Positions 62,711 to 64,000 of a DNA stretch of 64,000 nt are shown piece after piece (the first letter of the stretch is position 1; every line of letters begins with the position of its first letter). The position numbers and the translations under genes are program-made. This DNA comes from Neolewinella aurantiaca. GTDB lineage: Bacteria > Bacteroidota > Bacteroidia > Chitinophagales > Saprospiraceae. Under the pieces are notes generated by a model. It made no database searches and was not told the origin of the DNA. It saw only the letters and a program-made list of their open reading frames with translations. The stretch is from NCBI RefSeq assembly GCF_008014675.1, contig NZ_VOXD01000001.1, positions 1 to 64,000 on the forward strand. The letters run 5' to 3'.

Positions 62711-63274
62711 ATGAAACAGTTTTTACTCTTTTCCCTGGCTCTGACCATTACGCTCTTCTCTGCCTGTGGCGACGACGATGATGTGAGCCCTCTTGTCTTC
62801 ATCGGGAACCCCGATGGCTGGATGATCGAAACCATAGAGAGCGATTACCAGGCTCAGGCCGACGCTGCCATTGCGGGTGTTACCGACGAAGAGTTTGCGG
62901 CCGCCGGCCGCACCCGCGCCGGGGTGGCCGCAGAATACGACTCTTTGGTAGCAATTGTGACCCTGGTTGAACCCTGCGATCAGGACGATGGCCTTTTCTT
63001 TTCCGTTGAGGGAGCAACCCAGTTGCTGCGTCGCTTTGAGATTTGCGAAAACGGCGACCTGAACGTCCTCGATGTGTTTCACGCCCGGGCTTATGCACTG
63101 AATGCCAGCGCTACAACGATCACCTTCAGGGATGTAACGGGGGCGAACCCGGTAGTGTACGACGTCGATGAACTGAGCGAAAACAACCTTAGTTTTAGCG
63201 GAACGCGTATGGTTTCCGATACCATTGTCGGAGACTTTTCCTACGATATTCAGTACAACCTGATCGCGAACTAA
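62711..63274 (+). CDS. Lipoprotein of unknown function
   Basis: A 187-residue lipoprotein (signal MKQFLLFSLALTITLFSAC, Cys19), followed by an Asp run 'GDDDD' and 'SPLVFIGNPDGWMIETIES'. It has a helical stretch near residues 45-70 and strands after. Two Cys ('EPCDQDDG' and 'FEICENGDLNVLDVFH') could pair. The C-terminus 'TIVGDFSYDIQYNLIAN' is strand-like. The longer frame from 62561 is rejected. No function is seen. Confidence 0.72.
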   Translation: MKQFLLFSLALTITLFSACGDDDDVSPLVFIGNPDGWMIETIESDYQAQADAAIAGVTDEEFAAAGRTRAGVAAEYDSLVAIVTLVEPCDQDDGLFFSVEGATQLLRRFEICENGDLNVLDVFHARAYALNASATTITFRDVTGANPVVYDVDELSENNLSFSGTRMVSDTIVGDFSYDIQYNLIAN

Positions 63275-63348: not shown

Positions 63349-63389
63349 TGGTTCCAATGTTGCACCGCAGGTGCAATTATACCGGAACC
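63349..63389. repeat. Nested hairpin containing the repeat core
   Basis: TTGCACCGCAGGTGCAA (63360-63376) is a palindrome made of two facing halves of the dispersed repeat. It is enclosed by GGTTCC (63349-63354) and GGAACC (63384-63389). Confidence 0.65.
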
Positions 63390-63542
63390 AAAGTGGTTTG
63401 GGACTTTATCGCTTGTTATCGCGGCGTCTGGCGGCGTTGCTGAAAACCTTACCTGGCTCAGGCCAGGCGCGGCTTTCAGCGCCTTACCAGCCACCACGCT
63501 AACGGCGCGCTAATTGTTCCAAACCACTTCGTTTCCGGTATA
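63378..63542. repeat. Almost fully palindromic 165-bp element
   Basis: Read from its two ends, this segment is an imperfect inverted copy of itself along the whole length. The outer 27 bp (TATACCGGAA, then AAGTGGTTTGG) match closely, the middle matches with many G-T-type changes, and the centre is CCTGG-CTCAGG-CCAGG. It separates the 62711 lipoprotein gene from bshB1 and has no open frame. It could fold as one long RNA hairpin, or be a small insertion element. Confidence 0.8.
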
Positions 63543-63605
63543 CCGTCGGGGAACCAAAAACCTTCAGCCGGCAAAAATCGTTTCTTTCCCTTTACCCCGT
63601 GCCTT

Positions 63606-64000
63606 ATGAAAGTAGATATTCTTGCCATCGGCGTCCACCCCGACGACGTCGAGCTCAGCTCCTGCGGAACCCTTCTTCGCCACGCCGATCTCGGCTATAC
63701 CTTTGGCTTGCTCGATCTCACCCGCGGTGAACTCGGAAGCCGTGGTACCGGCGAAATCCGAACCGTAGAAGCGTATAACGCTGCAAAAAAGATGGGCGCG
63801 AAATTCCGGGAAAACCTGGACCTGCCCGACGGGTTCATGACCTATAGCGAGGAAAACCTGCGCAAGATCATTACCGTTCTTCGCCGCTGCCAACCGAAGA
63901 TTGTTCTCGCCAATGCACTTGGCGACCGGCACCCGGACCACGGGCGCGCCGCCAAACTCGTTGCCGACGCCTGTTTTTATAGTGGCCTCGTTAAGATCGA
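63606..64000 (+). CDS. bshB1: N-acetylglucosaminyl-malate deacetylase, 5' part
   Basis: The first 131 codons of BshB1, cut by the window edge. It carries out the second step of bacillithiol synthesis, removing acetyl from GlcNAc-malate to give GlcN-malate. The zinc-binding start 'DILAIGVHPDDVELSSCGT' is clear (His and two Asp), followed by 'LLDLTRGELGSRGTGEIRT' and 'AKKMGAKFRENLDLPDG', and then the His of 'GDRHPDHGRAAKLV'. This indicates that the organism makes bacillithiol as low-molecular-weight thiol, as many Bacteroidota do. Neighbouring bsh genes would be expected to the right, outside the window. Confidence 0.93.
   Translation, partial: MKVDILAIGVHPDDVELSSCGTLLRHADLGYTFGLLDLTRGELGSRGTGEIRTVEAYNAAKKMGAKFRENLDLPDGFMTYSEENLRKIITVLRRCQPKIVLANALGDRHPDHGRAAKLVADACFYSGLVKI

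Follow-up and report, generated by a model that had tools for sequence, protein, structure and literature searches.

In Neolewinella aurantiaca a lipoprotein gene ends at 63274 and bshB1 starts at 63606, and the segment that separates them raises a question of identity: is the long fold-back found there a snap-back miniature insertion or a structured leader of bshB1, the two readings offered by the initial annotation? By the window we mean the whole 64,000-nucleotide stretch of DNA that was analysed. Folding of positions 63360-63560 gave an energy of -96.5 kcal/mol, whereas shuffled sequences averaged -63.96 (sd 4.49, z -7.25), and 0 of 200 shuffles reached as low an energy. Indeed, the fold-back nature of the segment was borne out, as was its extent, the repeat unit shared by near-identical copies being exactly 63378-63542 (165 bp, TATACC...GGTATA). 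No credible gene was found inside it, where the open reading frame list contains only one antisense frame that crosses the segment, in agreement with the claim that it encodes nothing. An Rfam search of the segment returned no family at or above the gathering score; two CRISPR-repeat models below threshold (E 0.53 and 0.81) were set aside as chance. A small TTGCACC...GGTGCAA hairpin at 63360-63376 abuts the element. A motif resembling GCACCTGCG lies between genes at several loci (near L041, L056, L060 and L078) and may be a small repeat in its own right. The parts of the element are as follows.

63378-63542, minus strand (the best folder): whole element, 165 bp, as defined by copy boundaries and folding.
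63378-63404, plus strand: left terminal arm, TATACCGGAACCAAAGTGGTTTGGGAC, which resembles the ends of IS630-family insertion sequences (IS).
63516-63542, minus strand: right terminal arm, reading inward TATACCGGAAACGAAGTGGTTTGGAAC, identical at 23 of 28 positions to the IS630 end in L139.
63378-63379, no strand assigned: left outer TA, a putative target duplication, more variable than the inner TA.
63541-63542, no strand assigned: right outer TA, likewise a putative target duplication and more variable than the inner TA.
63405-63515, minus strand: conserved structured core, which covariance model R1 aligns over its full length with 105.3 bits, a score obtained with this core itself among the 19 rows used to build R1.
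63452-63467, no strand assigned: apical stem-loop, CCTGGCTCAGGCCAGG, where four of 11 copies carry a two-sided change.

A DNA search of the organism's own genome (G000) recovered 11 copies, including 63378-63542, at 95-100% identity, along with weaker or partial ones. Ten of the 11 are full length, the other (L024) having a damaged left end, and their mean pairwise identity is 96.8%. Their ends read TATACC...GGTATA with a single exception, one right end being GGTATC. The copies sit in unrelated flanks and, by inspection of open reading frames, appear to be intergenic with unrelated genes as neighbours; the two-sided apical-stem change common to four of them converts a G-C pair to A-T on the minus strand. 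When the flanks of copies were joined, no convincingly interrupted gene emerged, and plasmid and phage searches gave zero matches to the element. At L026:1586-1594, an amine-oxidase-like frame runs into an inserted element, whose opening bases supply the stop codon TAA (TATACCTAA). Two loci of the same genome, L067 (C19) and L030 (C18), carry an IS with GAGCGTGTC ends, which we take to be IS5-like, and at L067 this IS seems to be placed inside a hairpin arm.

A scan for the arm motif (up to three mismatches) found 65 places, as compared to 0 for a reversed control, and these include both ends of most full copies, 163-bp relatives and shortened hairpins of 70-79 bp, of 50 bp and of a minimal 28-30 nt. 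The shortened hairpins look like internal deletions with differing breakpoints. Minimal hairpins with TATACC-type ends occur at L056, L057, L059, L060, L065, L070, L071 and L031, where the breakpoints differ as if the bulk had been deleted between short direct repeats. The element is thus short, non-coding, present in many copies and fixed in its ends, as is typical of miniature inverted-repeat elements (MITEs).

To ask what the interior contributes, we compared elements beyond this genome. Elements in G005, G007 and G010 have a related core with different ends, TAGTG...CACTA, and among 19 full-length elements from six species two-sided changes occur in 18 of 36 consensus pairs. The covariance model R1 describes the core only (109 positions, 38 pairs, minus strand) and was trained on 13 TATACC and 6 TAGTG-type rows. 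Its sole match in the 64-kb window is the 63378-63542 copy. Against 120 genomes of the order (Saprospirales), the element's own included, R1 found matches at E 0.001 or better in at least 48, corresponding to at least 42 of 105 good genomes, at least 30 of 89 genera and at least four family codes; these counts are lower bounds, since no more than 31 candidates were scored in any genome, a number that the element's own genome reached. An alignment, A4, was assembled from 112 matches (110 distinct rows) in 100 chosen sources, namely 99 loci and the window, with near-copies and some other loci (e.g. L119, L160, L199 and L287) omitted; 12 of the 112 rows are second or opposite-strand matches, and all rows enter the pair and covariation counts. 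Two-sided changes occur in 36 of the 38 pairs, 87.2% of cells are paired as compared to 62.0% after shuffling, and the covariation score is 0.683 as compared to 0.220 for shuffled alignments and 0.10-0.16 for versions slid by 1-3 columns. These figures lean toward the structure, A4 being fitted to the model and containing the R1 training rows, and the shuffles leave row relatedness in place. Despite that lean, compensatory changes exceed both the shuffled and the slid controls by far. The core belongs to an order-wide family held by compensatory changes, and the core fold itself, preserved beneath so many kinds of ends, probably does something. Since both a second copy in the genome and a conserved structure in relatives were found, the observation made in the initial annotation stands. 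Second core matches lie about 50-150 bp from the first at L262, L159 and L179, so elements can lie side by side. The open literature yielded no description of such a family in Saprospirales, which does not prove its absence there.

The fold is not equally good on the two strands. For this copy the minus strand folds to -98.5 kcal/mol and the plus strand to -84.5, and the minus strand (in the window's frame) gave the lower energy in each of the 22 elements that were folded, with DNA parameters in agreement; one of the 22, L164, was counted by its folding strand as set by the R1 match. The arms had been described as differing by T for C against G, a change that keeps pairing in RNA, and one private change in this copy is of that kind (63518, consensus C, here T). 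Over the family, the reverse complement is the better-pairing strand. Within columns of Watson-Crick majority in the 19 elements, G-U occurs in 33 and A-C in 11 (P 0.0013), a difference that holds with pairs chosen from plus-strand folds, with the caveat that shared descent makes the columns non-independent. Helices 1 and 2 of A4 contain 233 G-U and 21 A-C pairs (best row per source, 100 sources). A symmetric arm alignment, which does not favour G-U, comprised 103 elements (the 100 sources and 4 further copies, less one with a short flank) and gave a weaker result. Overall there were 558 G-U vs 435 A-C; the basal arms had 203 vs 79, and the core, internal loops included, showed no bias (355 vs 356). 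The direction of the excess was the same by element (67 vs 21, with 15 ties) and by genome (20 vs 7, P 0.019). Little bias is evident in the changes that separate the 11 recent copies (8 G-U, 4 A-C), and the orientation of flanking genes, in a set of 114, showed no significant preference (50 sense, 69 antisense, P 0.10). From these sequence comparisons the folded core is probably strand-specific.

An alternative is that the element is a plain MITE whose fold is under no selection, in which template switching copies one arm onto the other and the covariation is mutational rather than functional. Such copying has a likely case in L028:2486-2535, a 50-bp form in which the outer 18 nt of the right arm exactly mirror the left arm and which looks like quasi-palindrome correction by template switching; similarly, L164 can be matched to a relative in either orientation, a pattern suggestive of one arm having served as template for the other. 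However, arm copying would erase conserved mismatches and wobbles, so it counts against this explanation that two wobble pairs of the minus strand have persisted, 13:153 (G-U in 18 of 19) and 50:118 (U-G in 17 of 19). A symmetric copying process also predicts no excess of G-U over A-C, an argument that is weaker in the symmetric alignment. We regard this explanation as unlikely.

The ends, unlike the core, differ among branches of the family. Elements in G077, G023, G019, G008 and G025 carry GTAATGG, GGAATG or GGAAC-type arms, and in 19 of the 28 copies whose two ends fit this pattern identical three bases stand on both sides, a 3-bp TWA duplication (10 TTA, 6 TAA, 1 TTT, 1 TAT and 1 ATA). The shuffled mean was 8.3 and the maximum 17 in 20000 reshufflings; the 3-bp idea arose from 20 of the 28 copies, and 5 of the remaining 8 match. 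IS630 elements insert at TA and duplicate 2 bp, and the 3-bp duplication of the TWA class is unlike this habit. Eight DDE_Tnp_1 (PF01609) loci in four genomes were inspected for a transposase of the TWA class, and none had matching ends. Different arms can nonetheless frame closely similar interiors. For example, an element with TATACC ends (G018) and one with TWA ends from another genus (G077) form hairpins of 163 and about 161 nt, respectively; their tips occupy the same position with respect to the core and are 89% identical over 64 nt, whereas no similarity was found between their arms. Likewise, in one core half and the tip the window element resembles an element of G005 that belongs to the TAGTG class (75% over 77 nt, E 3e-5), yet its arms are of the TATACC class, and going by this alignment the window element may be a recombinant. 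Several end classes occur within one genome, e.g. G011 and G019. In the latter, the near-identical pair L223 and L224 has a different stem-loop as its apical loop (CCCGTACTTAGTCGGGA) and resembles L221 in its arms. Mapped onto a tree of 100 cores, the 6 end-class labels require 20 changes, as compared to a shuffled mean of 52.2, so that members of a class tend to group together although the class has to change repeatedly; the tree is built on few columns and carries script-assigned labels, at least 3 of 100 of which are wrong by eye (L155, L161 and L261), and therefore bears no finer conclusion.

For the TATACC class the ends point to a candidate mover. The element's own genome has a single DDE_3 match, at a contig end, with TATACCAGTTAGGAAGTGGTTTGGGACAA adjoining the stop codon of the gene. 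Its protein and a relative in G014 are IS630-family transposases (NCBIfam IS630 equivalog; L139 and L141), the gene in the element's own genome being 5'-truncated and lacking the N-terminal part that in the G014 protein bears HTH_23, a match slightly below the family cut-off. G014 holds three full-length IS630 copies with a 355-aa frame, in which TATACC and TATACG ends lie about 1.12 kb apart within differing flanks. We slid the element's own 28-nt ends along the IS630 loci, and the best places scored 19-23 of 28, with 15-17 for the next best (L139, L141 and L142). These best places coincide with the two IS borders of L141, the two of L142 and the sole border present in L139. In a G020 fragment (L147) the two ends scored 22 and 21, the next best being 18 and 16. 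Therefore, both ends of the element resemble, in their sequence, both ends of an IS630-family IS of the same genus, and these shared terminal inverted repeats are a further MITE trait. The R1 core had no match in L139, L141 or L142, so the sharing is limited to the ends. No DDE_3 match was found in any of the seven other carriers searched, all drafts (G002, G004, G005, G007, G010, G011 and G018). G012 has five DDE_3 matches and G020 the IS630 fragment with a TATACC end, and neither genome has a core match. Among 19 elements, 6 of 38 cells of the outer TA and 2 of 38 of the inner TA differ from the commonest pair, a contrast weakly suggestive of the outer TA as target sequence. No close enough empty site was found, the bshB1 regions of relatives being too diverged to align, and for this reason a TA target duplication is unproved for the TATACC class.

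A second alternative is that only decayed copies remain of an ancient transposon family that is now immobile. The assembly lacks an intact transposase, and many copies are divergent or shortened. However, the mean pairwise identity of the 11 copies argues for recent movement, as do copies in G077 with identical scores and matching TWA flanks, and we consider an immobile family quite improbable.

Less probable still is that the element is of the REP/BIME type and that a RAYT (Y1) transposase moves it. The element's own genome has four Y1_Tnp matches, and the same ends are found on hairpins as short as 28-30 nt; however, TATACC ends were missing from the examined flanks of all four Y1 loci, the element ends match IS630 instead, and another end class, TWA, shows target duplications, which to our knowledge Y1 enzymes do not make. 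These four RAYT-like matches are L123-L126, and a repeated stretch just upstream of the one at L125 hints at REPs of its own.

That the segment is a structured leader, a cis-regulator of bshB1, is suggested by its position between the lipoprotein gene and bshB1 and is scarcely credible, since the element is absent from bshB1 loci in 23 relatives by DNA search (one 18-nt chance-level match, E 0.40) and by covariance model alike, other copies adjoin unrelated genes, and the better folding strand is antisense to bshB1. Nine upstream regions were compared by DNA; the lipoprotein gene is retained only in L078, where it is 70% identical over 573 bp, and the element was not found there either. The alternative reading of the initial annotation, a snap-back miniature insertion, is supported by 11 near-identical copies at unrelated sites with IS630-like ends. 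Taken together, the dispersed copies, the IS630-like ends and the absence of the element beside bshB1 in relatives suggest that the 63378-63542 copy is most plausibly a MITE that an IS630 transposase, acting in trans, inserted at TA.

The explanation that we favour, and consider likely, is a non-autonomous, MITE-like mobile hairpin with IS630-type ends, a core selected across the order and changeable ends. Its dispersal with fixed ends is seen in the element's own genome and in relatives, and elsewhere in the family the ends differ, one branch showing 3-bp TWA target duplications. An IS630-family transposase would bind the TATACC arms and insert the element at TA; since the sole transposase gene in the assembly is 5'-truncated, the source of that enzyme would have been lost, be unassembled or have been active earlier. 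The core would be kept by selection if one strand, here the minus strand, must fold for a lineage of copies to spread, the folding species being presumably RNA or single-stranded DNA, and the arms would change to suit whichever transposase is at hand. Selection would then act on lineages that go on spreading, rather than on each inserted copy, and single copies would decay, several of them down to hairpins of 28-79 bp. A more tentative extension is that a single structured, strand-specific hairpin lineage of about 160-170 nt is an order-wide parasite of several unrelated transposases, with the folded core as the unit that is inherited and its arms re-tailored to TA-type IS630 ends here and to 3-bp TWA-type ends in other genera. 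In a bolder form, the paired arms would give a single folded strand a double-stranded transposon end, so that the element may move, by excision or insertion, in the form of folded single-stranded DNA. MITEs are usually seen as deletion scraps of one transposon, with irrelevant interiors. Here the interior is shared across at least 30 genera and the ends vary in sequence and apparently in target duplication length. If true, small DNA hairpins would be long-lived replicators able to switch transposases, and a defined fold would make the function of such repeats directly testable.

Several known repeats share part of this design. Those of the REP/BIME type with RAYT are likewise dispersed intergenic hairpins, whereas the present element has IS630-like ends and no RAYT beside it in the flanks examined. 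RUP of Streptococcus pneumoniae, a 107-bp repeat linked to IS630-Spn1, is similarly non-autonomous, with IS630-like ends and a TA target; it differs in that the cited passages report no other signature of structure or function and no change of end class (PMC2229807). The Correia/NEMIS elements of Neisseria are also small (about 107 and 155 bp) and TA-ended, with repeat transcripts that form long stem-loops; they belong to another taxon, and no single interior under different ends is reported in that part of the source (PMC2229807). ERIC/IRU of enterobacteria are intergenic repeats with TA termini and an orientation-dependent RNA effect, and the same account, in its passages on them, reports no end swapping (PMC2229807). 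The BOX repeats of streptococci are small modular repeats with a predicted RNA fold in which the same interior, boxB, lies within different outer modules in S. suis; as described in the cited section, however, boxB modules stand in tandem rather than forming one long hairpin, and the outer modules are not tied to types of target duplication (PMC3049150). In its workings the element thus resembles MITEs of the RUP/Correia kind that IS630 moves, and it departs from that kind in keeping a conserved folded core under different ends with apparently different target duplications, an order-wide structured core wearing different transposon ends being unusual.
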